A stretch of DNA of 43,903 nt from Calothrix sp. HK-06. Its GTDB lineage: Bacteria; Cyanobacteriota; Cyanobacteriia; Cyanobacteriales; Nostocaceae. This document shows positions 8,171-38,209 of the stretch, in pieces. Position 1 is the stretch's first letter. The number at the start of each line of letters is the position of its first letter. The position numbers were made by a program, and so were the translations under genes. The notes below the pieces were generated by a model. The model was not told the DNA's origin, searched no databases, and saw nothing but the letters and a program-made list of their open reading frames with translations. The stretch is taken from the NCBI RefSeq assembly GCF_001904745.1, contig NZ_MRCD01000076.1:1-43903 (forward strand), written 5' to 3'.

Positions 8171-8182
8171 CGATTTACCGTA
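8171..8182 (+). promoter_or_regulatory. candidate sulfur-regulon motif before ssuA
   Basis: CGATTTACCGTA lies 57 bases before the chosen ssuA start, and a second, weaker copy (TTACTGTA, 8202-8209) follows. An inverted relative (AACGGTAA) lies just upstream near 8157. The same motif recurs before six other transcription units in this window (see findings). Confidence 0.5.
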
Positions 8183-8239
8183 TGATTAATCATGATTAAT
8201 CTTACTGTATACGTATTTACACTTAAAGAGATAGTGTTT

Positions 8240-9307
8240 ATGTTTATAAAATTATTTGCAGTACGAGTGCTAGGTAATTTACTGGGTTTATTTCAAGAAT
8301 TCCAACAGCAAAGAACCCGTGTATTTGTTGCAATGTTTGCAGTGGGATTCACTGTGGCATTTGCTTTGACTGCTTGTTCTGGTGGTGATAAAGCGGCACA
8401 ACAGGCGCCTACGTTAAATTCGACGACAGCACCAAGCGGTGTTGTAATTAGAATTGGGTATCAAAAAGCAGCAACTGTGCTGTATGCGCTAAAAGCAAAA
8501 GGCGAGTTGGAGAAAGCTTTTGCGGCAAGTGGCGCCACTGTAACATGGAGTGAGTTTCCCGCTGGCCCACCAATGTTAGAAGCTGTAAACGCAGGTAGCA
8601 TTGACTTTGGTTACACAGGAGAGGCGCCACCAATATTTGCTCAAGCTGGTGATAATCCGTTTGTTTACGTTGCTTATGACCCTTGGGGTGCAAAAGCTGA
8701 AGGTATTGTAGTTCCACAAAATTCCAAAATTTTGAGACTTGCTGACCTTAAGGGTAAAAAAGTCGCTTTTGCAAAAGGTTCAAATACTAATTACTTATTA
8801 GTCAAAGCTTTGGAAAAAGCAGGACTGCAATACAGTGACATTCAACCCGCTTTTTTAACACCTGCCGACGCGCGTGTTGCATTTGAAGGTGGGAACGTTG
8901 ATGCTTGGGCTATTTGGGATCCATATCTCGCAGCAGTTGAAAAAGCTCTGACACCACGTTTATTGACAGATGCAACAGGACTGGCGCCGAACCGTGGATA
9001 TTTTCTGGCTGCAAAAGCTTTCGCCGAGAAGAACCTAGAAGGATTGAAAACTGTTTTAGATGAAGTTAAAAAAGTGAGTGACTGGGCAAAGAATAATTCA
9101 TCTGAAGTAGCGAAGTTACTCTCTCCTGTATTAGGTATAGATGCTGCCGTTCTAGAGACAGCAGAAAAGCGACGCGAGTATGACGTACTTCCACTTACTG
9201 ATGAAGTAATTAAAAGACAGCAGGAAATTGCTGATACATTCTACAGAATCAAACTGATCCCCAAACAAATTAACGTCAAGGAAGCTGTTTGGCAGGGAAA
9301 TAAATAA
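8240..9307 (+). CDS. ssuA: aliphatic sulfonate-binding lipoprotein (SsuA-like)
   Basis: A periplasmic solute-binding protein of the SsuA/TauA (NMT1-like) group. From ATG at 8240 it has a long n-region, a hydrophobic segment and a lipobox ending LTAC about 45 residues in, so it is likely membrane-anchored. Domain landmarks include IRIGYQKAATVLYALKAKG, the binding loop WSEFPAGPPMLEAVNAG, DFGYTGEAPPIFAQAG, and VDAWAIWDPYLAAVE in the second lobe. These match sulfonate-binding proteins. An upstream ATG at 8192 would add 16 residues but would leave the putative regulatory motifs within or next to the coding sequence. No permease or ATPase gene (SsuB/SsuC) is adjacent, so it must use a transporter encoded elsewhere. 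Expression is probably tied to sulfur limitation. Confidence 0.85.
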   Translation: MFIKLFAVRVLGNLLGLFQEFQQQRTRVFVAMFAVGFTVAFALTACSGGDKAAQQAPTLNSTTAPSGVVIRIGYQKAATVLYALKAKGELEKAFAASGATVTWSEFPAGPPMLEAVNAGSIDFGYTGEAPPIFAQAGDNPFVYVAYDPWGAKAEGIVVPQNSKILRLADLKGKKVAFAKGSNTNYLLVKALEKAGLQYSDIQPAFLTPADARVAFEGGNVDAWAIWDPYLAAVEKALTPRLLTDATGLAPNRGYFLAAKAFAEKNLEGLKTVLDEVKKVSDWAKNNSSEVAKLLSPVLGIDAAVLETAEKRREYDVLPLTDEVIKRQQEIADTFYRIKLIPKQINVKEAVWQGNK

Positions 9308-9342
9308 TACTAACGTGTAGGGAGACGCAATATATCGATATT

Positions 9343-9376
9343 AATGTAGAGACGTTACATGTAACGTCTCTACATT
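9343..9376. repeat. perfect 34-base palindrome of the GAGAC...GTCTC family
   Basis: The left arm AATGTAGAGACGTTAC and the exact complementary right arm surround a central AT. It lies 35 bases after the ssuA stop and could terminate transcription (arm followed by TTTTTA). It has the same outer GTAGAGAC as the copy inside modBC. Confidence 0.85.
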
Positions 9377-9387
9377 TTTAATATAAT

Positions 9388-9399
9388 ACTGTAAATCGG
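9388..9399 (-). promoter_or_regulatory. candidate sulfur-regulon motif before the VOC-GST operon
   Basis: The minus strand reads CGATTTACAGTA followed by TTATATTAAA, closely matching the copies at 27916 and 30426. It lies about 60 bases before the ATG of the VOC gene. Its orientation is opposite to that of most other copies. Confidence 0.45.
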
Positions 9400-9458
9400 T
9401 CAAAATATAGTAGTATGCATTAAGCGTTACAAAAATTCGCACTTTTTTGGACTATATT

Positions 9459-10433
9459 ATGATTAGTGGAATTTTTGAGAATTGCATCGGGTCGCGCGAT
9501 GTAGAAGCTAGTCTCAAATATTGGGCTGAGTTGGGGTATCGAGTCGTAAGTCAGGCACAATTAAAAGCGACGCAAGCAGAGTTACTTTATGGATATGCAT
9601 CAAATTTAACGTCGTTCAGACTGCAAAATGGCAACTCGTCACAGCATGGACTAATACGACTGATGCTATGGTCAGAACCACTCAATGAAGGTTTAGGCGC
9701 CACTTTACCATTAGTTGTTGGTAGTCGTTGGTTTGCTTCATTAACAAAAGATATTTATACTGTCGCGGATGCTTTTACTGATGATCAATCTAACGGAGGT
9801 AACTGGTTATTTACTGAACCTGTGCGCGCGATAGAAGGTGTTGGGAATGTAGGAAAGAGTTTACATGAACGCTTTGTAGGAGTGCGGGAAATGTTTGTAA
9901 TTGGTACAGAAACACGACAAGCATTTTTTCAACGATACAACTATAATCGTCCGGGTTATGGTACGGTAGAAGCAAGTTCTCCTTTGGCAGTAAGTGAAGG
10001 AACTCATTCAAGTTTAGTTATAGCTGACCACAGTTTGAGTTATTTCTACGCGGAAGTATTTGGTCTTACACCAATGGAGTTCAATCCTAAACGTTCTGGA
10101 TATCAAAATCCTTCAACTCGTCAAATTTTGATGTTAGAAGAGGAACAAGAATTTTATGTATCAGCTTTTTGTCCACCGAAAGCAGTTGCAGGAGTCTTAC
10201 AAATATACAGTCCACTATATCCTACACCTGATAGACGTGAATATTCTAAACCCGGTTCTTTAGGACTATCTTTGTTTACTTATCAAGTTGATAATATCGC
10301 TGCTTTTCATGAACAAATCAGTCGTAGCAGTGCAACCAATGTCACTCCAATTTTAAATAACGAATTTGGCGAACCCTCTTTTGGACTAGTGGCGCCGGAT
10401 GGAACATACTGGATAATAATTGCACAACAGTAA
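9459..10433 (+). CDS. two-domain VOC-family (glyoxalase-like) protein
   Basis: A 324-residue protein that looks like two VOC modules in tandem. The first starts ISGIFENCIGSRDVEASLKY and the second near GTHSSLVIADHSLSYFYAEV. The last strand (FGEPSFGLVAPDGTYWIII) shows the usual PDG turn. Metal-ligand positions are not obviously complete in the first module, as in degenerate two-module members. I chose ATG at 9459; a TTG four codons upstream is possible. It is the first gene of an operon with a GST-zeta-like protein (18 bases on) and a GNAT protein (12 bases on). That grouping suggests processing of a thiol- or glutathione-linked small molecule, possibly from an organosulfur source. The substrate is unknown. 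Confidence 0.75.
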   Translation: MISGIFENCIGSRDVEASLKYWAELGYRVVSQAQLKATQAELLYGYASNLTSFRLQNGNSSQHGLIRLMLWSEPLNEGLGATLPLVVGSRWFASLTKDIYTVADAFTDDQSNGGNWLFTEPVRAIEGVGNVGKSLHERFVGVREMFVIGTETRQAFFQRYNYNRPGYGTVEASSPLAVSEGTHSSLVIADHSLSYFYAEVFGLTPMEFNPKRSGYQNPSTRQILMLEEEQEFYVSAFCPPKAVAGVLQIYSPLYPTPDRREYSKPGSLGLSLFTYQVDNIAAFHEQISRSSATNVTPILNNEFGEPSFGLVAPDGTYWIIIAQQ

Positions 10434-10451
10434 AATTATTAGGTTTAATTT

Positions 10452-11123
10452 GTGTTAGAACTTTATAGCTATTATCGTTCAACAGCATCCTACCGAGTTA
10501 GGATTGCACTAGAGCTAAAAAAGATTCCCTATCTTTATAAGAGTGTTGCTAAATTACGAAAAAATGACCTAGAGTTTACGATAGACTACAGCCAAATTAA
10601 TCCTCAAAAAATGGTTCCAACTCTAATCGATGGTGACGCTATTATTACTCAATCTTTAGCTATTATCGAGTATCTAGAAGAACGTTATCCTCAACCAGCG
10701 CTTTTACCCAGCGATGTTTTAGCAAAAGCTTATGTACGTCAAATTGCGCTGTTAATAGCTTGTGATATTCATCCGTTGAGTGTGATGAGGGTTCGTAAGT
10801 TTTTTACTTCAACAATGGGTTTTAGCTTCTCACAAAAAATGAGTTGGTATCGTCACTGGGTAGACGAAGGTTTAAAAGCTTTAGAAGAAATATTAAGTAA
10901 CAGTAAATTTCGGGGTAACTTCTGTTATGGAGATGAGCCAACTATAGCAGATGCATTCTTGGCGCCTCAAGTTTACAATGCCGAAAGATTTCAATGTTCT
11001 TTATCTCCATATCCAATCATTCGCCAAATCAATGAAGTATGTATGAACCATCCTGCATTTATTGCTGCCCAACCGCATTTACAGCCTGATGTTTCAGAAT
11101 ACAGCCCTAACGATGAATATTAA
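10452..11123 (+). CDS. zeta-class GST / maleylacetoacetate isomerase-like protein
   Basis: A 223-residue glutathione-S-transferase-fold protein. The thioredoxin domain opens LELYSYYRSTASYRVRIAL, carrying the zeta-class S-x-x-S-x-R-V-R glutathione-activating motif, followed by NPQKMVPTLIDGDAIITQSL with the cis-Pro and the DG-x-x-x-x-QS glutathione site. The C-terminal helical domain includes TIADAFLAPQVYNAERF. Family members isomerise maleylacetoacetate or act on alpha-halo acids. The start is GTG at 10452. It sits between the VOC and GNAT genes in one operon, so the substrate is probably shared with the VOC protein. An assignment to tyrosine breakdown is not supported by the neighbours. Confidence 0.85.
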   Translation: MLELYSYYRSTASYRVRIALELKKIPYLYKSVAKLRKNDLEFTIDYSQINPQKMVPTLIDGDAIITQSLAIIEYLEERYPQPALLPSDVLAKAYVRQIALLIACDIHPLSVMRVRKFFTSTMGFSFSQKMSWYRHWVDEGLKALEEILSNSKFRGNFCYGDEPTIADAFLAPQVYNAERFQCSLSPYPIIRQINEVCMNHPAFIAAQPHLQPDVSEYSPNDEY

Positions 11124-11135
11124 AACATTAATATA

Positions 11136-11588
11136 ATGATACAAATCCGTAAAGCATACCCAACCGAAGCATGTGAAATTACTCAATTAGGTATTCGTTC
11201 CAAACTTTACTGGGGTTACAACTTGGAACAAATGAGTGTTTTTGTACAAGAACTTATGCTACAACCAGATGCTATCACAGCATTGCATACGCATGTTCTG
11301 GAACTGGATGATGAAATTATTGGCTACTATAACTTGTTACCACATGAACAAACAGTAGAGTTAAAGCATTTATTCATCGAACCCTCTCATTTTAGGAAAG
11401 GTTTCGGTAGTAAGCTTTTAAAACACGCGCGTAGTACTGCTGTGTCTCTTGGTTTTCGACAGATGATTATTTTAAGCGACCCAAATGCAGAAGTGTTCTA
11501 CTTAAAACATGGTGCCCAATTAATTGAGTATATTCAATCGAGCATTCGTGGGCGCCTTATCCCGCTTCTAAAAATTCAATTAGAATAA
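11136..11588 (+). CDS. GNAT-family N-acetyltransferase
   Basis: A 150-residue GNAT protein. It opens with IQIRKAYPTEACEITQLGIR (strand 1 and helix 1). The acetyl-CoA-binding region is VELKHLFIEPSHFRKGFGSK followed by LLKHARS, containing a R-x-x-G-x-G-like pyrophosphate loop (RKGFGSK), and the last part has the usual YLKHGAQLIEY beta bulge. It is the third gene of the VOC-GST operon and follows the GST gene by 12 bases. It probably acetylates an amine of a small molecule. The acceptor is unknown. Confidence 0.85.
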   Translation: MIQIRKAYPTEACEITQLGIRSKLYWGYNLEQMSVFVQELMLQPDAITALHTHVLELDDEIIGYYNLLPHEQTVELKHLFIEPSHFRKGFGSKLLKHARSTAVSLGFRQMIILSDPNAEVFYLKHGAQLIEYIQSSIRGRLIPLLKIQLE

Positions 11589-11599
11589 TCATCTAAATA

Positions 11600-11803
11600 T
11601 CAAGTTTTTGAAGTACCTGACTTAAATTTCCATTTCATGTACGCCTCAACCGAATCGAAATATTGTAAGATACCATCTAACCCTTCAGGTCTTCCTTTCA
11701 AATAACCTTCCAAATAAACAGAGTCTTGCATTTGTGGCAATATTCCAGCATCGCGATGCCTTAAGCCTTGTTCATATCGGGTGTTAATAAAGTGATTAAA
11801 CAT
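11600..11803 (-). CDS. small conserved-looking hypothetical protein
   Basis: A 67-residue protein starting at MFNHFINTRYEQG. ATG at 11803 has GGAGAT 5-10 bases upstream, which decides this start over one 18 codons earlier. The sequence is polar, with YEQGLRHRDAGILPQMQDSV and a Gly-rich turn, and ends in a basic tail. I think of cyanobacterial hypothetical proteins with similar starts, but no function is known to me. It converges with the GNAT gene (11 bases between stops), so the two may share a termination region. Confidence 0.55.
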   Translation of the reverse strand: MFNHFINTRYEQGLRHRDAGILPQMQDSVYLEGYLKGRPEGLDGILQYFDSVEAYMKWKFKSGTSKT

Positions 11804-11904
11804 AAATCTCCTTATCCCTATAACTCTATTATGTAATATCTTGTTTGATAACAACAAATGTTCTTTATTGTTAAATCAATAAATTGAAGTTATTGAAGTT
11901 AGGA

Positions 11905-11958
11905 TTGATCCCCTTCCTTTTTTGTTCCCCCCGCGATTTCGGGGGCTAGGGGGATCAA
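11905..11958. repeat. GATCCCC inverted repeat with inner hairpin
   Basis: TTGATCCCC (11905-11913) and GGGGATCAA (11950-11958) are exact inverted copies. Between them a second stem CCCCC...GGGGG (about 11928-11945) with a GCGATTT loop can form. This looks like one of the very small dispersed repeats common in Nostocales intergenic DNA. It lies 40 bases before the methyltransferase start. Confidence 0.7.
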
Positions 11959-11997
11959 ACAGTATAACATTACAATAGTTATCTCTACACTAGAAAA

Positions 11998-12771
11998 ATG
12001 ACAATTTACGATTCAATTGGCAAAAAATACTCAACAACGCGCGTTCCCGACTATCGCATTGTTAAAAAAATAAATAATTTACTAAACTTACCTAGAGGTA
12101 GTAATATAGCTGATATCGGCGCTGGTACAGGTGGTTACAGTTTAGCGTTAGCGAATCAAGGATTTGATATTTATGCTATTGAACCTTCTTCGATAATGCA
12201 GTCTCAAGCAATAGAACATCCAAATATTAAATGGAAAGCTGGTTATGCAGAAGAAATTCCTTTACCAGATAATTCAGTTGATGCAGTGATAAGTATATTA
12301 GCAATTCATCACTTCTCTAACTTAGAGAAAGCTTTTCAAGAAATGAATCGTATTCTCAAATCTGGAACAATAATTTTATTAACTTTTGATATTAGACTAG
12401 CTCAGAAGATATGGCTATATGATTATTTTCCTTGGCTTTGGGAAGATGCATTACTATTTCTACCCATCAATGAGCTTATAAATTTAATTGAGAGAAACAC
12501 TAAAAGAAGTGTTGAGGTTATACCTTTTTTATTATCACATGACTTGTCTGACTTATTCGCTGCTGCCGCTTGGAGGCGCCCAGAATTATATTTACAACCA
12601 GAAGTGCGCGCGGGGATATCCTCGTTTGCTAAGTTCGACCAAAGTATTATCGAATCTGGAGTTAAGTTATTAGCAGCAGATTTAAGTAGTGGTGCTTGGA
12701 ATGCAAAATATAAAGAAATTCTCAATCTTACAGAAATTGACGTAGGCTATCGTTTCTTACGAATATTTTAA
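11998..12771 (+). CDS. class I SAM-dependent methyltransferase
   Basis: A 257-residue methyltransferase. The SAM-binding motif I is SNIADIGAGTGGYSLALA (about residues 35-52), motif II ends in IYAIEPSS, and the later strand is DNSVDAVISILAIHHF with FQEMNRILKSG as post-motif. This is a Methyltransf_11-type UbiE-like fold. The acceptor-binding C-terminus is not diagnostic. It stands alone, converging with the AhpD-like gene on the minus strand (10 bases between stops). It could act on a small acid, a quinone or a toxic oxyanion. The sequence does not decide. Confidence 0.8.
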   Translation: MTIYDSIGKKYSTTRVPDYRIVKKINNLLNLPRGSNIADIGAGTGGYSLALANQGFDIYAIEPSSIMQSQAIEHPNIKWKAGYAEEIPLPDNSVDAVISILAIHHFSNLEKAFQEMNRILKSGTIILLTFDIRLAQKIWLYDYFPWLWEDALLFLPINELINLIERNTKRSVEVIPFLLSHDLSDLFAAAAWRRPELYLQPEVRAGISSFAKFDQSIIESGVKLLAADLSSGAWNAKYKEILNLTEIDVGYRFLRIF

Positions 12772-12781
12772 CTCAGTTAAT

Positions 12782-13174: not shown

Positions 13175-13214
13175 AATTGCTTAGTATTTATAATTTGAGG
13201 TTTATTTTACAACT

Positions 13215-20739: not shown

Positions 20740-20740
20740 A

Positions 20741-27841: not shown

Positions 27842-27915
27842 TGTAACGGATAAAAACTAATTAGCTTCTCATGCTGAATTTTGTAAAACAATCGTGAAAA
27901 CTATAGTAAGTCTAT

Positions 27916-27927
27916 CGATTTACTGTA
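27916..27927 (+). promoter_or_regulatory. candidate sulfur-regulon motif before the beta-CA-like gene
   Basis: CGATTTACTGTA, followed by TATTAAAA, lies 80 bases before the start codon. It matches the motif before ssuA at 11 of 12 positions. Confidence 0.45.
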
Positions 27928-28007
27928 TATTAAAAGAGAAGAATTGCTTTTGTATAGAAGTAATTTTGTATTTATGCTAAGTATCAAGCTTTGGATTTCT
28001 TTCAATT

Positions 28008-28589
28008 ATGAGTCAAGTTTTAGACGAAGTTCTATCAGCAAACCGTATTTATACAGATAATTTTGGTGACAAAGGTAATCTGGCAATTTCACCAAAGCGC
28101 CGCTTTGCAATTCTAACTTGTATGGATGCTAGATTAGACCCAGCTAAGTTTGCGGGATTATCTGAGGGTGATGCTCATGTGATTCGTAATGCTGGTGGTC
28201 GTGCTTCGGATGATGCGATTCGCTCGTTAGTCATTTCTTACAAATTACTTGGTACTCGTGAGTGGTTTGTCATTCATCATACTAATTGTGGAATGGAAAC
28301 CTTTACCGATAAAATTATGCACAATTTACTCGCCAGTAGTCTTAAAACAGCCACAATTGATGATACAGGTTGGTATGATCTTGGTGATGGTTCTGGAACG
28401 AATGAAGCAAAGTTTATCGATTGGTTAACTATTGAGGACTTTGTTAAAAGTGTCTATATAGATGTGAAACGGATTCGTAACCATCCATTAGTTCCGCGTG
28501 GAATACCTATTTACGGTTATATCTATGATGTTAAGACAGGAAAATTGGCTGAAATTTCTGAAGCTACGAAAGTTGGTCAAGTTCTATAA
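28008..28589 (+). CDS. beta-carbonic-anhydrase-like protein
   Basis: A 193-residue protein with the beta-CA zinc site: Cys38 in [11 protein letters not shown] (with Asp40-Arg42 dyad) and His91-x-x-Cys94 in [11 protein letters not shown]. The fold start [20 protein letters not shown] and [20 protein letters not shown] fit small soluble beta-CAs. Some members of this family hydrolyse carbonyl sulfide or carbon disulfide rather than hydrating CO2, and this clade-type length (about 190-215) and context are compatible with that. The sulfur-type motif upstream hints at a sulfur role. A typical CO2-hydrating enzyme remains the default reading. A good terminator follows at 28683. Confidence 0.87.
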
Positions 28590-28682
28590 TTTAACTCCTG
28601 CCTAGCTTACTTGCTTTTTGAAACTGCCTGTGAGATGCTGATATCTGCTTATACTACCTTAATCTTACCAAGATACAGTAGT

Positions 28683-28845: not shown

Positions 28846-30270
28846 TTGTCACTATTAAAAACACAACCATCAACTTTATCAAGCTCACAAAAACTTTGGG
28901 CTTTATTCGGTGTAGGTGTTGGAGTATTTATGTCTACTTTGGATGTAGGTATTATCAATGTCGCTCTACCAACGTTAGTTAGTCAGCTACAAACTACCTT
29001 CCCTGAAGCTCAGTGGGCAGTATTAAGTTATCAACTGGTTAGTTCAAGTTTAGTTTTAGCCGCCACTCGTTTAGGTGACATGTGGGGGAAAAAATCTTTA
29101 TACCAAGCAGGTCTAATTACATTTACTTTGGGTTCATTGTTGTGCGGACTGGCGCCTAATATTAATTTTTTAATCGGGTTTCGTGCTTTACAAGGGTTAG
29201 GCGCCGTGTTTTTATCTGGACTTGGTTTGGCTATTATTGCAGAAATATTTCCCAACTCTGAGCGAGGTCGAGCTGTTGGTATTATTGGTAGTGTTGTTTC
29301 ATTAGGAGTTGCGCTTGGTCCTTCGTTGGGAGGTTTGTTTCTATATTTAGCAGGTTGGCGCAGTGTTTTCTTGATTAATGTGCCGTTAGGTATAATTGCT
29401 ACTGTACTTGTTGCGAAAGTAGTCCCTTCTTCTGTACTCAGTAAAGAAAAACAACGCTTTGATATGATTGGCGCCATTTTAGCATTGTTAACGTTGAGTA
29501 GTTTTGCGTTGGGAATGACGCAAGGACAACGAGAAGGTTTTAATAGCAATCACGCAGTTACTTTACTGGTATTGAGTATTATAGGTTTTGTTAGTTTTTT
29601 GATTGTTGAAACTCGTATTAAACAGCCTTTACTAGAAATTAACCTGTTTCGCAATTTACGTTTGAGCATGAGTCTATTAAGCAACTGGCTCGTATTTATC
29701 GTTTTATCCGGCTTAATGCTGGTTATTCCTTTCTTTTTAGAGCGCGTCAAACAATACCCTACTTCAAAAGTCGGATTACTACTTGCCATATCACCCATTG
29801 TTAGCGGTTTAATTGCCCCAATATCCGGCGCCATGTCCGACCGTTTTGGCTCTCGCTTAATTGGTGTAACTGGATTAGGATTAATGGTAGGCGCCTGTTG
29901 GGCTATAAGTACTTTTGATGCTCAAACAACAGAGCTAGGGTATACGGTGCCTTATTTTATCTACGGAACAGGGCTGGGTTTATTCCGTTCACCGAATGAT
30001 AGTACCGTAATGGGAGCAGTGCCTAGGGAACGATTAGGAATTGCCTCTGGATTGTTATCTCTATCACGTACTTGTGGAGTTACTGTTGGTATTGCTGTGA
30101 TGGGAGCAATATTTACAGGTTTAAGCGCAAGTATAGATGTTGCGACTGCTTCAAGTGAAGCAATTGTTGCAGGATTTCAAGGAACGTTCCGCGCTTCGGC
30201 AATAATTTTATCTGTGGCAGCACTAGCGTCAGCTTTTAGGTTCCACAAATCTAATGCTGCTTACCGTTAA
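28846..30270 (+). CDS. DHA2-family MFS drug exporter (EmrB/QacA type)
   Basis: A 474-residue protein with a 14-span DHA2 pattern. It starts with GVGVFMSTLDVGIINVALPT (motif D1, with Asp), motif A at GDMWGKKSLYQAG, motif C GVALGPSLGGLFLYLAGWRS and VFLINVPLGI, all typical of EmrB/QacA proteins. The start is TTG at 28846 with GAGAGGGAG just upstream; no ATG lies near. It is a single gene between the beta-CA-like gene and the SDR-hydrolase operon. The likely role is proton-driven export of a small organic compound, substrate unknown. Confidence 0.87.
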   Translation: MSLLKTQPSTLSSSQKLWALFGVGVGVFMSTLDVGIINVALPTLVSQLQTTFPEAQWAVLSYQLVSSSLVLAATRLGDMWGKKSLYQAGLITFTLGSLLCGLAPNINFLIGFRALQGLGAVFLSGLGLAIIAEIFPNSERGRAVGIIGSVVSLGVALGPSLGGLFLYLAGWRSVFLINVPLGIIATVLVAKVVPSSVLSKEKQRFDMIGAILALLTLSSFALGMTQGQREGFNSNHAVTLLVLSIIGFVSFLIVETRIKQPLLEINLFRNLRLSMSLLSNWLVFIVLSGLMLVIPFFLERVKQYPTSKVGLLLAISPIVSGLIAPISGAMSDRFGSRLIGVTGLGLMVGACWAISTFDAQTTELGYTVPYFIYGTGLGLFRSPNDSTVMGAVPRERLGIASGLLSLSRTCGVTVGIAVMGAIFTGLSASIDVATASSEAIVAGFQGTFRASAIILSVAALASAFRFHKSNAAYR

Positions 30271-30339: not shown

Positions 30340-30425
30340 TACAAGCTGTGACAAAAAGTTAAAAATACTCTTGCTTTATTAAGCAATATGTGTGATTCTC
30401 TAAATACATACTACACTAATCCGAC

Positions 30426-30437
30426 CGATTAACTGTA
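30426..30437 (+). promoter_or_regulatory. candidate sulfur-regulon motif before the SDR-hydrolase operon
   Basis: CGATTAACTGTA, followed by TTTAAAC, lies 43 bases before the SDR start codon. It matches the ssuA motif at 10 of 12 positions. Confidence 0.45.
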
Positions 30438-30480
30438 TTTAAACATTTAGTAGTTCATGAATCAGAGTGAGGGGTGAATT

Positions 30481-31230
30481 ATGGCTCTTAAACTTGAAGG
30501 AAAGGTGGCAATTATTACCGGAGCATCTTCGGGTATTGGTGAAGCAACAGCAATTGCATTAGCCCAAGAAGGCGCCTCTGTTGCGATTGGCGCCAGACGT
30601 GGGGAACGTTTGGAGGCATTGGCAAAGCGCATTGAAGCGAGTGGTGGTAAGGTATTGCCTATTGTTACCGATGTCACAGATGAGGACCAAGCTAATAATT
30701 TAGTAGAAAAAACTAATGCAGAGTTAGGACGGGTAGATATTCTTGTTAATAATGCAGGTGTGGCATTAACTGGCAATATCGACGGTGGAAATACTGCTGA
30801 CTGGCGCCGGATGATTGATGTAAATGTTCTAGGGGTACTTTATACAACTCATGCAGTTCTACCAATTTTCAAAGTGCAGCAGACAGGACATGTTGTTAAT
30901 ATTTCATCGGTAGCAGGTCGCGTTGCACGAGCTGGTGTTGGTATATATAATGCAACTAAATGGGGGGTTAATGCTTTCTCGGAAGCATTGCGGCAAGAAG
31001 TATTACGAGATAATATTCGTGTTACTATCATTGAGCCGGGATTGGTAGATACAGAAATCAATAACCACACTACTGACCCTGTAGCAAAAAAAATTAATGA
31101 AGAACGACGCAAAGCAATAGTGCCACTGCAAAGCGAAGATGTTGCAGCAGCAATAGTTTACGCTGTAACTCAACCTTCCCATGTGAATGTAAATGAAATT
31201 CTGATTCGACCGACTTTACAAGAACGGTAA
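30481..31230 (+). CDS. short-chain dehydrogenase/reductase (classical SDR)
   Basis: A 249-residue SDR. It has the nucleotide motif TGASSGIG (residues 14-21), NNAGVAL, catalytic Ser in NISSVAG, and Tyr-x-x-x-Lys in GIYNATKWG, with IEPGLVDTEI after the active site. The pattern matches clavaldehyde-dehydrogenase-like or serine-dehydrogenase-like SDRs (YdfG type, NADP). It heads an operon with an alpha/beta hydrolase 21 bases downstream. Shared control by the candidate sulfur motif suggests it reduces or oxidises a small hydroxy acid or aldehyde from organosulfur turnover, for example a sulfonate-derived aldehyde. That role is inferred only. Confidence 0.85.
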   Translation: MALKLEGKVAIITGASSGIGEATAIALAQEGASVAIGARRGERLEALAKRIEASGGKVLPIVTDVTDEDQANNLVEKTNAELGRVDILVNNAGVALTGNIDGGNTADWRRMIDVNVLGVLYTTHAVLPIFKVQQTGHVVNISSVAGRVARAGVGIYNATKWGVNAFSEALRQEVLRDNIRVTIIEPGLVDTEINNHTTDPVAKKINEERRKAIVPLQSEDVAAAIVYAVTQPSHVNVNEILIRPTLQER

Positions 31231-31251: not shown

Positions 31252-32142
31252 ATGAAACACCAAGAAGGATATTTTAAAGGAACCGGGGGAATAAACCTTT
31301 ACTATCAAAGCTGGCGCCTGCTTGATAATCCACATGCAATTGTTGTAATAGTACATGGTTTAGGAAGTCATAGTAATTTATTCGGTAATATTATTCAGTA
31401 TTTGGTAAAAGCTGGATATGCCGTATATGGTTTAGATTTACGTGGACATGGACGCTCACAAGGACAAAGAGGACATATCAATACTTGGTCTCAATATCGA
31501 GAAGACATACAAACTTTTTTAAAATTAATTGAGTTGCAAGAACCAAAATCTCCATGTTTTCTTTTAGGCCATAGTTTAGGCGCCATAATTGTTTTAGATT
31601 ATGTTCTACGTTTGGCATCTTCTGTCAAGGGAATTATTACAATGGCGCCTCCATTAGGTAAAGTGGGTATTTCACCTGTAAAAATGAACCTGGGACGCAC
31701 ACTTTCAGCAGTAATGCCAAGATTCACACTTAGTGTTGGACTTGCTGGCGACCAAATTACCCGCGACCAAAATGTACAGGAAACTTTCACTCAAGACGTA
31801 CTAATGCATTCCAGAGGAAGCGCGCGTCTCGCAACTGAATTTCTAGCCGCAAAAACTTGGATTCAATCTCATACTATTAATTTACGAGTCCCCATTCTAA
31901 TTTTGCACGGTGGTTCTGACTCGGTGGCGCCTGCTGAAGGTAGTCGTATATTCTTCCAACAAATAGCTTTCCCAGACAAAGAACGCTATGAATACCCTCA
32001 AAGTCGTCATGCGCTACATCGCGACCTCGACTATCAATCAGTATTAGCAGACTTAGGAGACTGGTTAGAAAGACACGTTAAGGGGGGAACTGTAATTCCA
32101 TTCACACCTCGCTCAAATAGTAATGAATATATGCTGGGTTAA
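31252..32142 (+). CDS. alpha/beta hydrolase (monoacylglycerol-lipase / lysophospholipase type)
   Basis: A 296-residue Hydrolase_4 protein. It has oxyanion region VIVHGLGSHSNLFG, DLRGHGRSQGQRGH, nucleophile elbow LLGHSLGA (Ser in GHSLG), acid in LHGGSDSVAP, and the catalytic His in YPQSRHALHRD. This is the monoglyceride-lipase-like group. It follows the SDR gene by 21 bases, so co-transcription is likely. The substrate could be a lipid monoester or a small ester. Confidence 0.87.
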   Translation: MKHQEGYFKGTGGINLYYQSWRLLDNPHAIVVIVHGLGSHSNLFGNIIQYLVKAGYAVYGLDLRGHGRSQGQRGHINTWSQYREDIQTFLKLIELQEPKSPCFLLGHSLGAIIVLDYVLRLASSVKGIITMAPPLGKVGISPVKMNLGRTLSAVMPRFTLSVGLAGDQITRDQNVQETFTQDVLMHSRGSARLATEFLAAKTWIQSHTINLRVPILILHGGSDSVAPAEGSRIFFQQIAFPDKERYEYPQSRHALHRDLDYQSVLADLGDWLERHVKGGTVIPFTPRSNSNEYMLG

Positions 32143-32239: not shown

Positions 32240-32361
32240 TGACTCGCAAAAGTAAAACAACAAAACCTTGATAGGTTTTTAGTATTTTATTTCCAAACCC
32301 CTTGATTCAATGCTCGAAGTGTGACACAATGTGAAATAGCAGCATAATACAGTATTCCGAC

Positions 32362-32373
32362 TGATTAACAGTA
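32362..32373 (+). promoter_or_regulatory. candidate sulfur-regulon motif before the small ORF and ssuE
   Basis: TGATTAACAGTA, followed by CATTTG, lies 46 bases before the ATG of a 44-codon ORF and about 260 bases before ssuE. It is a weaker match (first base and Y/A position differ) than the others. Confidence 0.35.
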
Positions 32374-32419
32374 CATTTGAAAAATAATCGTCCAAGTATT
32401 AGCAAGGAGATTAAAAGCG

Positions 32420-32554
32420 ATGTTACATCAAGATATTGAGCAAATGTCTGTACTGAAAGGTTTGGAATCATGGCGCCAGCGCTTGAATTCTCAACAATCG
32501 GCGCCTGTGCAATGTAGCTTCCACAGATGGACGAATCAATGGAAATGCAAGTAA
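32420..32554 (+). CDS. 44-residue ORF upstream of ssuE
   Basis: A short frame with a clear ribosome binding site (AAGGAG 9 bases before ATG at 32420). It encodes MLHQDIEQMSVLKGLESWRQ, then a Gln/Ser stretch and QCSFHRWTNQWKCK, ending with TAA at 32552-32554. It has two Cys and a His near its C-terminus and is not hydrophobic. It lies 79 bases before ssuE and shares its upstream motif. It may be a leader peptide, a small protein of the sulfur response, or a chance frame. The strong RBS argues for translation. Confidence 0.5.
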   Translation: MLHQDIEQMSVLKGLESWRQRLNSQQSAPVQCSFHRWTNQWKCK

Positions 32555-32633
32555 GTCACTCTCCGTTAAATTATCGGTGTTTACTGAGTAGCGCAACTAA
32601 TTAAAGCCTCGTCTAAATAAGGAGAATAGATAC

Positions 32634-33197
32634 ATGTCTAATATCGTTGCAATTGCTGGAAGTCCATCTCACCCTTCCAGAACTTATGGACTTTTGGAAT
32701 ATGCCAATACTGTTTTACAGCAAAATGGTTTGAAGACAGATTTAATATCAGTACGCGATTTACCTGCTGAAGATTTGATATTTGGACGCTATGACAGTCC
32801 TGCACTACAAGAACCCAAAGCTTTACTTGAAGCTGCTGATGGCATTATTATTGCTACTCCAATCTATAAAGCAGCTTATACGGGTACATTGAAAGCATTT
32901 TTAGACTTGCTACCTCAAAAAACACTTTTGAATAAAGTAGTTTTACCAATTGGGACGGGTGGAGCTATTACTCATGCTTTGGCAGTAGACTATACACTTA
33001 AACCAGTTCTTTCTGAACTTGGAGCAAGACATATTTTAGGAAGTGTTTATATAATAGATAAACAAATCCAATTAAACGCAGATGCAAAAATTCAGCTTGA
33101 CGAAGAAAGTGAGCAAAAATTAAAGGATGCTCTAAATGAACTAACACAAGCTGTAAATCCTCAATCAGCATCTAAAGAATTGGCTCACGTCAATTAA
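32634..33197 (+). CDS. ssuE: NADPH-dependent FMN reductase (SsuE-like)
   Basis: A 187-residue flavoprotein. It starts IVAIAGSPSHPSRTYGLLEY (FMN phosphate loop GSPS-PS), then ISVRDLPAEDLIFGRYDSPA, ADGIIIATPIYKAAYTGTLK, and LPIGTGGAITHALAVDYTLK, the typical SsuE sequence. SsuE supplies FMNH2 to the alkanesulfonate monooxygenase SsuD. No SsuD gene lies in this window. It is paired with the orphan SsuA and the broken TauD, so it may serve a monooxygenase encoded elsewhere. The ATG at 32634 has AAGGAG upstream. Confidence 0.88.
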   Translation: MSNIVAIAGSPSHPSRTYGLLEYANTVLQQNGLKTDLISVRDLPAEDLIFGRYDSPALQEPKALLEAADGIIIATPIYKAAYTGTLKAFLDLLPQKTLLNKVVLPIGTGGAITHALAVDYTLKPVLSELGARHILGSVYIIDKQIQLNADAKIQLDEESEQKLKDALNELTQAVNPQSASKELAHVN

Positions 33198-33630: not shown

Positions 33631-33644
33631 AAACCGGGTTTTTT
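33629..33644 (+). terminator. short hairpin with T-run after the small acidic gene
   Basis: AAAAACC (33629-33635) and GGTTTTT (33637-33643) form a 7-base palindrome around a single G, overlapping the stop region. Such AAAACCGGGTTTT hairpins are common and could end transcription. Confidence 0.5.
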
Positions 33645-33712
33645 CATTGATATATTATAATAAAAAAATATTTTGGTTACAAACCAGATTTCTTTAATTC
33701 TAGAGGTGTAAA

Positions 33713-34927
33713 ATGCCAAATAATAGCATATCTACTTGGGAGCAACTACTAGAAATTGCTCGACAAAAAACTGATGCTCGTCGCATAGCAAGACCAGGAC
33801 AGTCTCCATCTACGGCGCCGATTCCTAGCAGTCTTCATAAATTGCCCAAAGATACAAAACCTCCAGTTTTATTGTATCGTGATACAAACTCTTGGTGTCC
33901 TTTCTGCGAGCGAGTTTGGTTTGCTTTAGAGGAAAAAGAGATTCCGTTTGAGACAGAATTTATAGACTTGAGTAACAAGCCCAAATGGTACACAGATATG
34001 GTGCCTACAACTCTTGTACCAGCAGCAAAAATTGAGGGCAATCTTGTCTATGAGTCGAAAGATATTCTTTTAGCATTAGAAGAAAAATTCGGTCAAACCT
34101 TACTTCCAGACAACCCAGAGGAAAACTCAGTTGCACGGCAGTTAATCGAAGAAAGTGAAACAAATGGGTTCTTCGGCGCCGCTTATAACTTCCTCAAAGA
34201 AAACACATCAGATTCTATAGAGCTAACAAATCACCAAGCCGCATTTGAAACGAAATTAGATGAACTCGAACAACTTTTAGGAAAATATCCAGGTGCCTAC
34301 TTTTTATCAACATTTAGCTTAGTTGATATATTATACAGCCCTCATCTCGACAGATTAGCAGCAAATTTACCAGTCTATCGAGGCTATCATATCAAAGGGA
34401 ATCCACGTTTCACACGAATTAACGCTTGGTTTGAAGCGCTTAATCAACGTCCTGCTTATCACCGCGTTAAATCAGATGATATTACTAATAACTTACTTCG
34501 GAAAAGAAGATGGGGCGCCCAACCAATAGGAAATCTTTTACCTCCCGACCCAGCATACATCAACGTAACTCAATATCGCGCGGAAGCAGCAGAACGATTA
34601 AGTGATAACCGCGAAGTCGCCATTGGAGACATTCTAAAAAACTCAGGAGTTCAAGCTTTAGCCAAAGATGGTGACATTTCACAAATAAAAGAAGCAATAG
34701 ACTTTCATTTAAGACTGTTAGCTGATTATCTTATTCACGGTGACGAAAAAGTTTTACCTTGGGGAAGAGTTGGGGGCCAAGATAACGCAGACCCAACATC
34801 CTCAGCAGTAGGCGCCATCACATTAGCTTACGTTAGAAATCGTATTTGCGCGCCTCGTGACATGAGTGCAGGCGCCGCAACTGCATTTAGAGCAGCTACC
34901 GATAAAGTACTAGCATCTATCTACTAA
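33713..34927 (+). CDS. glutathione-S-transferase-domain protein, long form
   Basis: A 404-residue protein. After about 50 residues of N-terminal extension comes a thioredoxin-like GST domain: VLLYRDTNSWCPFCERVWFA (CPFC redox motif, about residues 62-65), IDLSNKPKWYTDMVPTTLVP (cis-Pro) and ESKDILLALEEKFG. A helical GST C-domain follows to about residue 260, and the last 140 residues are another helical region (SDNREVAIGDILKNSGVQAL). CPFC GSTs resemble omega or glutaredoxin-like GSTs that use Cys for deglutathionylation or dehalogenation. It is a single gene near cysK and ssuE, which is compatible with thiol metabolism. Confidence 0.83.
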   Translation: MPNNSISTWEQLLEIARQKTDARRIARPGQSPSTAPIPSSLHKLPKDTKPPVLLYRDTNSWCPFCERVWFALEEKEIPFETEFIDLSNKPKWYTDMVPTTLVPAAKIEGNLVYESKDILLALEEKFGQTLLPDNPEENSVARQLIEESETNGFFGAAYNFLKENTSDSIELTNHQAAFETKLDELEQLLGKYPGAYFLSTFSLVDILYSPHLDRLAANLPVYRGYHIKGNPRFTRINAWFEALNQRPAYHRVKSDDITNNLLRKRRWGAQPIGNLLPPDPAYINVTQYRAEAAERLSDNREVAIGDILKNSGVQALAKDGDISQIKEAIDFHLRLLADYLIHGDEKVLPWGRVGGQDNADPTSSAVGAITLAYVRNRICAPRDMSAGAATAFRAATDKVLASIY

Positions 34928-34937
34928 AATTAAAAAT

Positions 34938-34966
34938 CTGGGAAGAACAGGCACATTCCTTCCCAG
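34938..34966 (+). terminator. terminator after the GST gene
   Basis: CTGGGAAG (34938-34945) and CTTCCCAG (34959-34966) form an 8-base stem with a 13-base loop and are followed by GTTT. It lies 11 bases after the stop codon. Confidence 0.7.
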
Positions 34967-35094
34967 GTTTAAATATAAACATCAGGTGTATATCAATTCA
35001 AATGAACAAATTACGGACATGGCATTGTATCAAAATTATAAAGTGATAAAAAAGGCGCCGACCAATATTTATCATAAGTCGGTGCCGGAAGTAA

Positions 35095-35202
35095 TCAAGT
35101 CATATTAGTAGTAAAGCCAAGCCGTCTTCTAGTTATGTGTAACATTGTCCCACTAAAACCGGCGCCAACAATTGTAATTACAAGTGATTCGTTATTATGC
35201 AT
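35095..35202 (-). pseudogene. N-terminal remnant of an FAD/NAD(P)-binding protein
   Basis: From ATG at 35202, the frame encodes MHNNESLVITIVGAGFSGTM then LHITRRRLGFTTNMT and stops at TGA 35095-35097. The segment VITIVGAGFSGTML is a Rossmann GxGxxG dinucleotide loop typical of FAD/NAD(P)-binding proteins. No continuation in the other frames is convincing. It is a 35-codon stump. Confidence 0.55.
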
Positions 35203-35430
35203 AAATATGTTTACTGGTAACAATTTAACTTCTGTCACGTTTAACCGGAAGAATAATTATGATCTTTGCTTTTTTTAATAGTTACAAGGCGTTTTAAATA
35301 TATAAAAAATCTTCAAAACAATAGGTAAACCAAGCTACTTTTAGGCTTCTATTAAAATGTATTTAACTTATTTCATAGAATTAAAACTGAATAAGCAAAA
35401 ATTACAAGCAAGTCCAAAAAATGCTTGAAA

Positions 35431-35604
35431 TCAATATATATACCGTAGTTTAAATCTATACTTGGAAAAGTGAAAGTCTATTTGAATACAAACAGTCTCT
35501 GATTCTCTGCGTAATTCTTGCAATATTAATCCGGCACCAATAAATCCTACATCAGTTGTGATACCGTGAATTGCTCGACTGAAGCAATTTTCAGATGAAA
35601 TCAT
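35431..35604 (-). pseudogene. MgtC/SapB-family remnant
   Basis: From ATG at 35604 a 57-codon frame reads AIHGITTDVGFIGAGLILQE then LRRESETV, after which the match fades. GI-T-vGFiGAG-il is the core signature of the MgtC/SapB membrane family, linked to Mg2+ or phosphate-stress survival. The rest of the about 150-residue domain is absent. One copy of the ACCGTAGTT motif overlaps the 3' end of this frame (35442-35450). Confidence 0.6.
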
Positions 35605-35728
35605 TAGATGCAGAATCTTGATAAATTTACCGTAGTTAAGGGTATACTAAATAAAAGCTTAACCAAAAATTAATTTTTATACTGGTATTAAAATATAGCT
35701 GTTCCTGTTCAAGTTAAACTACGGTTTT
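35442..35728. promoter_or_regulatory. three ACCGTAGTTWA motif copies upstream of cysK
   Basis: Copies are at 35442-35450 (plus, ACCGTAGTT), 35625-35639 (plus, ATTTACCGTAGTTAA) and 35714-35728 (minus, AAAACCGTAGTTTAA). A fourth is at 36166-36178 (minus). The clustering is unusual, since elsewhere single copies precede genes. They could belong to lost genes, to distal control of cysK or to undetected small RNAs. Confidence 0.45.
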
Positions 35729-35926
35729 CAAGTATTCTTTATCTTGATTATAAAAAGCTTTAATGTACAAGCTTCATATGATACAATAAAACAAAAATAC
35801 TATTTATTGATAAATTTTTGGGAGTGATTATTTTTACTTATTGTTTTTCTCGCTAAAGTATGTGATAATCTAATCTTAATAATTGTACGGTAACTTGACA
35901 GAGTTGCAGTACTATAAGAAGAAAGG

Positions 35927-35957
35927 TAGGCTCTACAATTACAAATTGTAGAGCCTA
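35927..35957. repeat. 14-base-stem hairpin TAGGCTCTACAATT
   Basis: TAGGCTCTACAATT (35927-35940) and its complement (35944-35957) enclose only ACA. It is a strong, isolated hairpin in AT-rich DNA that could be a terminator of an unannotated transcript from the left or a dispersed repeat. Confidence 0.8.
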
Positions 35958-36165
35958 TGGAAGGGGGGTTACATTAATTTGGTATTTTCGGTAGCATGTA
36001 AACTAAAGTTTATGTGCTACCTACTTAATGCTAGTAGTACTTAGTTATTTTTACGCTATTTCGGTTTGTTAGTTCTTGACCTGGTATTCAAACTTCATTT
36101 ATTTTTTATCCTTATAAAGGAAATGAACTATAATCATAAATAAGTTTTCTCATTTAATCTTAATA

Positions 36166-36178
36166 TTAACTACGGTTT
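36166..36178 (-). promoter_or_regulatory. candidate sulfur-regulon motif before cysK
   Basis: The minus strand reads AAACCGTAGTTAA, centred about 65 bases before the cysK start codon. Its orientation is opposite to that of the motif before tauD. Confidence 0.45.
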
Positions 36179-36238
36179 GTCGATATATATAAAGTACTAT
36201 AGTAAAGTATTGCTCATTCCAAAAAGTCAAATCTTGCC

Positions 36239-37201
36239 ATGCGAATTGCCCGCGATATCACAGAAACCATTGGTAGGACTCCATTAGTCCAACTTAACCG
36301 TATTCCTCAAAGTGAGGGAGTAAAGGCCAAAATTTTAGTCAAGCTTGAAGGAATGAATCCTTCGGCTTCGGTAAAAGACAGAATTAGCACCAAAATGATC
36401 GCTGCTGCTGAGTCAGCGGGGTTAATTCAACCTGGTAAAACTATTTTAGTGGAACCAACTTCGGGAAATACAGGTATCGCTTTGGCAATGGTGGCAGCGG
36501 CTAGAGGGTATAAATTAATACTGACAATGCCGGATACGATGAGTATCGAGCGACAATTAATACTCAAGGGTTATGGCGCCGAAGTAGAGTTAACACCTGG
36601 AATTAAGGGTATGCAGGGGTCAATTCTTCGCGCGGAGCAAATAGTCGCAAGTACTCCAAATGCATATATGTTACAACAGTTTAGCAACCCAGCGAACCCT
36701 CAAGTTCATAGAGAGACTACAGCAAAAGAAATTTGGGAAGATACCGATGGTCAAGTAGATATTTTAATTGCTGGGGTAGGCACAGGTGGAACAATTACTG
36801 GGGTGAGTCACGCAATTAAGCAGTTAAAACCAGATTTTAAAGCAATAGCTGTTGAACCGAGCAACAGTTCTGTAATTACAGGAGGAAGACCTGGGGTTCA
36901 CAAAATACAGGGAATTGGCGCCGGATTTATTCCTCCTGTTTTGCAATTAGATTTGATTGATGAAGTAATTCAAGTCAGTGACGATGATGCTATTAATTAC
37001 GCACGACGATTGGCATCTGAAGAAGGAATTCTTTCTGGAATTTCAACTGGGGCTGCTTTATGTGCTGCAATTGAGGTAGGCAGACGCCCAGAAAATGCAG
37101 GACGTTTGATTGTGATGGTACAGCCTAGCTTTGGTGAACGTTACTTGAGTACACCATTGTTTAAAAATTTAGTATTGACAGAATTAAGTGCTACCAACTA
37201 A
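36239..37201 (+). CDS. cysK: cysteine synthase (O-acetylserine sulfhydrylase)
   Basis: A 320-residue PLP enzyme. The lysine is in [11 protein letters not shown] (Lys near residue 44), the substrate loop is [10 protein letters not shown], the phosphate loop is [10 protein letters not shown], and [20 protein letters not shown] completes the CysK signature. It uses sulfide and O-acetylserine to make cysteine, the terminal step of sulfur assimilation. The nearby sulfur-type motif and organosulfur genes fit a role in using sulfide released from scavenged compounds. It may be a paralogue rather than the housekeeping enzyme. No clear RBS is seen. A convergent terminator separates it from the next gene. 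Confidence 0.93.
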
Positions 37202-37244
37202 CGCGCTTATTTGGCATCTGGAAATAAAATTGAATATTTACCAA

Positions 37245-37284
37245 CCCGAATTTTGAATCAACCCAAGTTTTTCAAAAAATCGGG
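37245..37284. terminator. bidirectional terminator between cysK and the hydrolase gene
   Basis: CCCGAATTTTGAA (37245-37257) and TTCAAAAAATCGGG (37271-37284) form an imperfect stem with A/T runs on both sides, placed between two convergent genes. Confidence 0.6.
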
Positions 37285-37285
37285 C

Positions 37286-38071
37286 TTATTTTGGTAAAAA
37301 TTTAAGCATTACATTAGCCACTGCATCTGGTGACTCAACCAAAAAACCATGACCGGCGCCTTCAATAATAACAAGCTCGGCATCATTGATACCATCAGCA
37401 AGTCGTTGAGAGAATGCCACAGGTGTAAGAATATCTTCCTTTCCAACAATAACTAATGTAGGGCAGAGAATTTTGTGGAGACGGTCATTAGTGTGATTGT
37501 GGAGGATAGCTCGGCTTTGATGATAAATTCCGTGAGGTGTTGGTAAGGGGTAATATTCAATGATACTAATAATATTTTGAATACTTCCACTTGAGTAAAA
37601 ATTTTCAGTATACATCCAAGGCAGCAAGGTTTTTTGATAAATTTTTCCTTCCAAATGATTAGACAAGTTCCCAAACATCTCAATTATTGAATCAAACTTA
37701 GTGTTCCCTTTTGCCCAAGATGAGAGGAGTATTAAACTTTTGACTTTTTCTGGATGCGCCAAAGCTAATTCTTGGGCAATTTGTCCACCCATTGAATGAC
37801 CTGCTACATGTACTTGAATAATTCCCAAATAATCCAATAGTTCTAAAGTATCATCAGCCATCTGTTTAATAGTATACGGACTATCAGGCGCGGAACTTTT
37901 ACCGACTCCTCGGTTATCTAAGCGAATCACTTGATAATTCTTTACTAGTGCTGGTACAACCAGCGACCAGTAAGAGCTATCACAATCAAACCCAGCAATT
38001 AATAATAAAGGTGTACCCTTTCCTTGAATGTTGTAGTACAAATCAATCCCGTTGACATGGATTTTCGGCAT
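37286..38071 (-). CDS. alpha/beta hydrolase
   Basis: A 261-residue hydrolase. It has the oxyanion loop PLLLIAGFDCDSSYWSLVVP, RLDNRGVGKSSAPDSPYTIK, nucleophile elbow VAGHSMGGQIAQEL (Ser in GHSMG), acid in VGKEDILTPV and His in EGAGHGFLVESP. It resembles the broad group of 3-oxoadipate enol-lactonase-like and haloperoxidase-like enzymes. It is divergent from tauD. The intergenic region holds a sulfur-type motif plus an ATACTGTATT relative on its side, so it may be co-regulated. The substrate is unknown. Confidence 0.87.
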   Translation of the reverse strand: MPKIHVNGIDLYYNIQGKGTPLLLIAGFDCDSSYWSLVVPALVKNYQVIRLDNRGVGKSSAPDSPYTIKQMADDTLELLDYLGIIQVHVAGHSMGGQIAQELALAHPEKVKSLILLSSWAKGNTKFDSIIEMFGNLSNHLEGKIYQKTLLPWMYTENFYSSGSIQNIISIIEYYPLPTPHGIYHQSRAILHNHTNDRLHKILCPTLVIVGKEDILTPVAFSQRLADGINDAELVIIEGAGHGFLVESPDAVANVMLKFLPK

Positions 38072-38194
38072 AATTCCTACTGATAAAATTGGGATGCTTT
38101 TAAAAATATATCTTTTGATAGAGATGTTTTAACAATTTTCCACTTGATTATCCTTGTTTTAATACAGTATTATGATAAAAAACTGTATCTTAGT

Positions 38195-38209
38195 CAGTTT
38201 ACCGTAGTA
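38195..38209 (+). promoter_or_regulatory. candidate sulfur-regulon motif before tauD
   Basis: CAGTTTACCGTAGTA lies about 97 bases before the tauD start, between the divergent hydrolase and tauD genes. A related sequence on the other strand (ATACTGTATT, about 38161) may serve the hydrolase. Confidence 0.45.

Follow-up and report, generated by a model that had tools for sequence, protein, structure and literature searches.

A 30-bp palindrome before the genes of a proposed sulfur-limitation regulon in Calothrix sp. HK-06 and an Rrf2 relative of CymR as its probable reader

In the filamentous cyanobacterium Calothrix sp. HK-06, genes that appear to form a sulfur-limitation regulon share a 30-bp palindrome in their promoters, and this palindrome is probably read by a protein of the Rrf2 family that is related to CymR, the cysteine regulator of Bacillus. 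The analysis started from contig NZ_MRCD01000076.1, a stretch of 43,903 nucleotides (here called the window). An earlier note on this stretch had described a short motif before several genes of sulfonate and cysteine metabolism, and had proposed a regulon of sulfur limitation whose regulator is not encoded in the window. As judged from the sequences, the regulon holds and widens: it would include ssu and tau genes, cysK, a cysA-like gene, sulfatases, rhodanese, TauE, the phycocyanin pair cpcBA and a divergent pair of genes for CysR and an Rrf2 protein, with similar neighbours in related genomes. The regulator does seem to lie outside the window, the candidate being the Rrf2 gene of that pair on contig C230. 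Our leaning, held with some reserve, is that the palindrome serves a global sulfur regulator as its operator and that a CymR-type Rrf2 dimer reads it.

The motif was originally given as two short strings, CGATTWACYGTA and ACCGTAGTTWA, and matches to them are present in the window at the places named, none with more than two mismatches. The first is exact at 8171, 27916 and 30426, has one mismatch at 9387 (minus strand) and two at 32362, 36171 (minus strand) and 38195; the second is exact at 35442, 35629, 35715 (minus strand) and 36166 (minus strand). When the promoter sites were aligned with their flanks and the matrix was iterated, however, the strings turned out to be only the halves of a 30-bp mirror-symmetric dyad, A(A/C)TAC(G/T)GTAAATCGA-TCGATTTAC(A/C)GTA(G/T)T, in which conservation is highest 11-13 bp from the axis and the axis falls between two bases. 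A direct-repeat reading, drawn from the aligned sites, was dropped once the dyad emerged.

The distinction between halves and whole matters for the simplest alternative, namely that a word recurring by chance in promoters has been mistaken for the mark of a regulon. Plain scans with the 11-12-mers, which are hardly enriched over shuffled sequence, lend this idea what support it has and were rejected as proof of the motif. With at most three mismatches, CGATTWACYGTA has 141 matches in the window versus 121 +/- 11 in shuffles (5 of 100 shuffles reach 141), and ACCGTAGTTWA has 219 versus 238 +/- 15 (92 of 100 reach 219). In the 9.99-Mb genome, CGATTWACYGTA occurs exactly 15 times, which we read as nine positions within or at the edge of open reading frames (ORFs) and six in promoters (the three in the window, one on C22 before groES and two on C192); with one mismatch there are 239 matches, versus 172 for a reversed control pattern. 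The full palindrome behaves very differently. Its matrix was first iterated over contig C192, the window and some of C22. After refinement on 14 genomic stretches that total 295,155 bases, it finds there 54 sites of at least 17 bits, 12 of them in the window, versus about 0.1 expected by chance; the sites stand this far above chance because the short strings are halves of the longer element. In 2.95 Mb of order-2 Markov DNA, the matrix gave 6, 2, 1 and 0 matches at thresholds of at least 13, 15, 17 and 20 bits. Only four of the 54 sites have more than half of their length within an ORF of at least 90 codons, in sequence of which such ORFs cover 80.6%, and two of these four look like wrongly extended gene starts. 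Given these counts and the recurrence of the palindrome in relatives, we regard a chance word as extremely improbable.

Several limits define these counts. The 14 stretches were picked through a genome-wide profile search or through CGATTWACYGTA, that is, for holding matches, so the density of dyads in them is not that of the genome. The full matrix scan covered 295 kb of the 9.99 Mb, and the profile search scored 150 of 5,591 first-look candidates, so that weaker sites elsewhere may be missing. Within this scope the matrix generalizes well: when built from the 42 non-window sites alone, it recovers all 12 window sites (16.6-31.7 bits) plus a weak one of 14.9 bits at 32257. Among the sites of at least 20 bits, 43 of 49 have a gene start within 320 bp, at a median distance of 59 bp from the centre.

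The genes behind the palindrome, named from Pfam (40 proteins scanned) or from sequence, include SsuA-like binding proteins with ABC genes, three luciferase-like monooxygenases, TauD, an FMN reductase, a sulfatase on C140 and, on C17, a sulfatase-modifying enzyme with a sulfatase gene after it. A TauE exporter, a rhodanese, a cysA-like ATPase (C111) and two of the three cysK genes seen are also preceded by dyads, as are genes for GSTs, an acyl-CoA-dehydrogenase-like protein, a nitroreductase, flavoproteins followed by ferredoxin-like genes, a dienelactone hydrolase and SDRs, together with groES and regulator genes. The VOC-like protein and three others of the 40 had no Pfam match. The operon that we take for sbpA-cysT-cysW has no dyad of at least 13 bits. 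That the targets of the full palindrome constitute a sulfur-limitation regulon is well supported by what they appear to encode and by like neighbours of the dyad in relatives. The further proposal that the uncharacterized targets degrade organosulfur compounds gains little: groES, phycocyanin and regulators are also members, so that membership does not imply organosulfur breakdown. The groES site, a 26.6-bit palindrome at G000:C22:21865 directly before groES-groEL, is an odd member of a sulfur regulon.

On the whole, the proteins of the regulon are poorer in methionine and cysteine. A content of at most 0.8% is found for 18 of 77 regulon operon genes. Among their neighbours the figure is 17 of 158 (Fisher p 0.011), and among genes from elsewhere it is 4 of 50 (p 0.020), with a threshold that was set after looking.

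Of 60 genomes searched with a profile of the dyad at E 0.1 (both strands, stricter filters), 37 have matches, although single matches at this level may be chance; the largest number in any genome other than the window's own is 36. Neighbours were listed for 29 of the best sites, three of which have no nearby gene. Ten neighbours, hand-picked as likely to be informative and hence not a rate, comprised a pair each of SsuA-like proteins, permeases, TauD and SBP_bac_11 proteins, along with a single sulfatase and a single SDR resembling that of the window.

What protein might read such an element? A palindrome of 29.6 bits at C230:20661 sits between a divergent Crp-family gene and an Rrf2-family gene (G000:C230:20806-21240), the latter coding for 144 residues. 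From their sequences, we take the Crp-family gene for cysR and the adjoining operon for sbpA-cysT-cysW. The Rrf2 protein matches 4cic (2.9e-21), B. subtilis CymR (2y75, 4.7e-19), IscR (8.3e-16) and S. aureus CymR (8.3e-13). It lacks the cysteines that would hold an Fe-S cluster, C129 being the sole invariant cysteine among eight aligned proteins, and its predicted model (mean pLDDT, the predicted local distance difference test score, 81.5) has a helix-turn-helix and a wing. The C-terminus is distinctive: MYYI closes 101 of 103 homologues (102 matches above 100 bits plus one of 81 bits), and MYHI the other two. The protein 4cic also ends in MYYI, while all 13 sampled members of another Rrf2 subfamily end differently.

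The placement of the palindrome follows the phylogeny of these proteins. In a tree of the 103, one clade of 27 (support 86), comprising all descendants of the last node shared by four selected rows, has a palindrome of at least 14 bits within 400 bp upstream in 25 cases; locus L121 is counted as positive for its 32.3-bit site, the window used by the script having given 11.7 bits. The two members without a palindrome are a 93-residue fragment (G018) and the protein of G042. Outside the clade, seven more Rrf2 genes have a palindrome at 219-329 bp, and in the outside case that belongs to Calothrix itself, on C233, the palindrome lies in a divergent promoter. On a first tree of 90 rows, the presence of the dyad required 5 changes versus 26 for shuffled labels, and none of 500 shuffles was as low. 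Among named genomes, dyads of at least 14 bits precede 50 of 74 Rrf2 loci (the best 80 of 237 relatives of a clade-derived query, 6 of the 80 being unreadable), and they recur in Nostoc, Anabaena, Oscillatoria, Microcoleus and Leptolyngbyaceae. By our reading, every genome with dyads has an Rrf2 protein of the MYYI type, and the eight genomes without one (G019, G041, G048, G051, G053, G054, G058 and G059) all have zero dyads.

A number of observations weigh against assigning the palindrome to this protein. A ubiquitous Rrf2 clade has the dyad upstream in none of its 32 rows in the 90-row tree. Five genomes have dyads and lack the special clade (G008 with 7 matches, G010 with 9, and G033, G039 and G057 with 6 each), so that the reading there would have to fall to different MYYI paralogues or to some other protein, and in G017 the special clade is present with no dyad match. 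The sulfate operon at C230:15914, as noted, has no dyad. The position of -10 boxes, examined in 54 oriented site-gene pairs, did not tell a repressor from an activator, because an arm of the dyad itself resembles a -10 box. Two results concerning CysR belong with these points: of 30 CysR loci, 21 have a dyad of at least 14 bits, 13 of these at 13-17 bp before the start, and the number of dyads in a genome tracks CysR (p 2.0e-7) as well as it tracks the special Rrf2 clade (p 9.8e-8), with kinship ignored and with the presence of CysR in 31 genomes taken from our own reading of the matches. Since both proteins are equally associated with dyads, co-occurrence was discarded as a way to discriminate between them.

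CysR is therefore a serious rival, which we rank second after Rrf2. CysR is known from Synechococcus elongatus as a Crp-family protein that regulates sulfate uptake. If it were the reader, the Rrf2 gene would be one of its targets, and the arrangement on C230, with the two genes diverging across one palindrome, speaks for this. In S. elongatus, according to passages of one report, a cysR-null strain grows less well than the wild type at 1% CO2, whether sulfate is limiting or ample (PMC12016511). Several genomes are hard to reconcile with CysR as the reader. Dyads occur in G030, G033 and G043 (best E 7.3e-4, 1.5e-4 and 0.0040, respectively), where the only Crp proteins are distant ones (best matches 2.3e-10, 3.1e-10 and 6.8e-13 in a search at E 1e-5); in G029 (best dyad E 0.0072), CysR is present only as two partial pieces at 44%; and in G008 (best dyad E 1.0e-4), there are only CysR paralogues that lack the C-terminus. 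The first four of these genomes favour Rrf2 over CysR. In addition, a Crp site is compact, unlike a dyad whose conservation peaks 11-13 bp from the axis. We therefore consider CysR a rather unlikely reader. In Calothrix, the CysR orthologue, a cyanobacterial sulfur regulator that adjoins the Rrf2 gene, differs from that of S. elongatus in being a likely target and possible partner; no full orthologue was found in G029, G030, G033 or G043.

A third arrangement overlaps with the assignment to Rrf2: in a cascade, the Rrf2 protein would repress through the dyad, cysR would be among its targets, and CysR would activate other genes through a different site. This would account for a dyad that precedes cysR, yet is missing from the sbpA-cysT-cysW operon beside it, and it draws some support from the tails of the CysR proteins (loci L133-L162), of which 27 of 30 end in YEI and one in YQI, again with a C-terminal isoleucine. 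No separate CysR site was found, none having been sought, and we give the cascade a real but minority chance. The earlier note had instead pointed to a LysR-type regulator, and here the fit seems poor. The T-N11-A rule for LysR sites has an odd length, whereas the axis of the 30-bp dyad falls between bases, which may speak against such a reader. One LysR-like gene (by sequence) at C230:10272 has an 18.9-bit site upstream, but any target could be expected to show as much as this single weak site. Passages of PMC2940859 place sulfur genes of other bacteria under LysR control; in Calothrix we find this very improbable, and an Rrf2 protein of the CymR type fits better.

Could the ubiquitous Rrf2 clade bear a variant of the same dyad? 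This was rejected, as the promoters hold another conserved element. That element, AAACCCCAGTGGAGAACCGGAGTATACT, lies upstream of widely shared Rrf2 genes (for example at L180, L201 and L176) and runs straight into a -10-like box; its core is present in 43 of 67 upstream regions, versus a mean of 0.41 in shuffles.

A mechanism for the proposed Rrf2 regulator can be sketched by analogy with CymR. The sequences themselves show the palindrome, where it lies in Calothrix and in relatives, that it stands before Rrf2 genes, and the MYYI tail. From the sequences, we infer that the Rrf2 protein would bind the palindrome, repress rather than activate, respond to sulfur, and sense it through CysK and O-acetylserine. 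The CymR of B. subtilis associates with CysK, which stabilizes CymR on DNA, and O-acetylserine signals through CysK to CymR, as set out in passages of PMC2940859, PMC9338935 and PMC4961446. Proteins that enter CysK usually have a C-terminal isoleucine (passages of PMC4961446 and PMC12895370), and the MYYI tail fits a CysK-docking tail by this analogy. In the proposed scheme, when cysteine is ample, the Rrf2 protein, encoded outside the window beside cysR and the sulfate-permease operon, would be docked on CysK via its tail and bound to the palindromes, repressing their genes. When sulfur is short, O-acetylserine would accumulate and occupy CysK, the Rrf2-CysK complex would loosen, and the regulon would be switched on: scavenging of sulfonates, taurine and sulfate esters, sulfate uptake, cysK, CysR and a sulfur-sparing phycocyanin. 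The Calothrix CysE also has a C-terminal isoleucine (GSGI), so competition for CysK is possible; B. subtilis, according to PMC12895370, is said to lack the usual CysE-CysK complex. Perhaps the -YEI tail of CysR would be a second CysK-docking tail. The full version, in which filamentous cyanobacteria place their whole sulfur-starvation programme, the change to sulfur-poor phycocyanin among it, under a MYYI-tailed Rrf2 repressor that senses O-acetylserine via CysK and has as its target CysR, a second regulator that docks on CysK (by its -YEI tail), is a tentative proposal that we think has the odds against it.

Of all the targets, the phycocyanin genes are the most telling, and they offer a view of the regulon from the side of sulfur economy. 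A 30.0-bit palindrome lies 43 bp before the pair cpcBA of the same genome. The CpcB encoded there has two cysteines and no methionine beyond the start, and CpcA has one cysteine and no internal methionine, counting from the likely start MSK. In a sample of 30 cpcB loci out of 40 matches listed, genes with at most one internal methionine are preceded by a palindrome in 7 of 13 cases (25.4-31.8 bits, 43-299 bp upstream), with 6 of 13 lacking it, while genes with at least three have none in 17 (Fisher p 0.0008). One of the six low-methionine loci without a palindrome, in G009, adjoins a cluster with five palindromes of at least 15 bits. Locus L369 (G009:C1:728000-745000), beside sulfur-depleted cpcBA, encodes proteins of 610, 607, 271 and 288 residues without internal methionine, which suggests that sulfur sparing there may reach beyond phycocyanin. 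At low sulfate, Tolypothrix sp. PCC 7601 (Fremyella) makes antennae poor in sulfur amino acids, according to passages of PMC4424289. The Calothrix genes share with it a phycocyanin almost without methionine or cysteine, and differ in that a defined operator, with a candidate for its regulator, can be assigned to them. In the parts of the open literature that were searched, which did not take in Gutu et al. 2011, no regulator of the swap to sulfur-poor phycocyanin was named.

Within the window, the first palindrome (8155-8184, 25.1 bits) precedes an SsuA/NMT1-type substrate-binding protein gene (8192-9307, plus strand; Pfam NMT1, 4.3e-11). It also lies 149 bp from a divergent ABC gene (7176-8021). 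The strongest site (9385-9414, 32.1 bits) stands before gene 9447, called VOC-like in the earlier note and without a Pfam match at 0.001, and the two genes that follow it (GST_N_3, then Acetyltransf_7, the GNAT gene). A palindrome of 27.1 bits at 27900-27929 precedes a beta-carbonic-anhydrase-like gene (28008-28589; Pro_CA, 2e-11), and one of 22.6 bits at 28653-28682 precedes the gene at 28846-30270 that had been named MFS-like, where the earlier note had found no motif. The site at 30410-30439 (27.4 bits) lies before an SDR (30481-31230) and a hydrolase (31252-32142). That at 32346-32375 (24.3 bits) lies before a 44-codon ORF (32420-32554), which reads as previously described and has no match at E 0.001 in 59 other genomes (one of 60, its own), and an ssuE-like FMN reductase gene (32634-33197) whose 187-residue product has no internal methionine and no cysteine.

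The long region before cysK (36239-37201, plus strand; PALP, 3.2e-72, with the TSGNT loop) holds five palindromes: two weaker ones at 35420-35449 (19.0 bits) and 35796-35825 (18.4 bits), others at 35607-35636 (22.0 bits) and 35884-35913 (25.4 bits), and one at 36169-36198 (25.3 bits), directly before the gene. Of the three additional motif copies reported here, those at 35442 and 35629 fall in palindromes and that at 35715 falls in none of at least 13 bits, and the site at 35884 had been missed. The last palindrome (38179-38208, 25.0 bits) stands before a tauD-like gene (so named in the earlier note; 38307-39194, plus strand) that is broken despite the site upstream: a 72-codon ORF starting at 38307 stops at 38525, and a second runs from 38565 to 39194, the latter piece with no internal methionine and no cysteine. 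An Rfam scan of the window at gathering scores gave no match. The word GGCGCC occurs 77 times in the window (1-43903), where 3.7 copies would be expected from trinucleotides and 39.7 from pentamers; GCGATCGC, which we take to be HIP1, is absent from the same stretch, and GGCGCC is possibly a HIP1-like repeat of another word.

How does the Calothrix system compare with known Rrf2 regulators? With CymR of B. subtilis and S. aureus it shares the winged helix without cluster cysteines, the isoleucine tail, targets in cysteine and organosulfur metabolism, and the involvement of cysK. It differs in being cyanobacterial, in having several paralogues, in its phycocyanin and sulfatase targets, and in a CysE that ends in GSGI. 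IscR, NsrR and RisR belong to the same family and have palindromic operators, whereas the Calothrix protein lacks cluster cysteines and has other targets; passages of PMC9973013 include Cyanobacteria in the Fe-S (RisR) group of Rrf2 proteins. No CymR-type regulon and no such palindrome in cyanobacteria surfaced in literature searches that likewise lacked Gutu et al. 2011, the likeliest source on cpc3, so part of this may be known.

What the analysis offers is an operator that is precisely defined, some 50 sites for it, and a single protein as the leading candidate reader. It ties many enzymes of uncharacterized role, among them GSTs, luciferase-like monooxygenases, acyl-CoA-dehydrogenase-like proteins, an SDR and a carbonic-anhydrase-like protein, to one regulon, which is probably controlled by sulfur. 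If the proposal about CysK were true, two unrelated families of transcription factors would have converged on this enzyme as a sensor, with CysE (-GSGI) competing for its pocket; and if the Rrf2 protein is indeed the reader, CymR-like control would be extended to the cyanobacteria.

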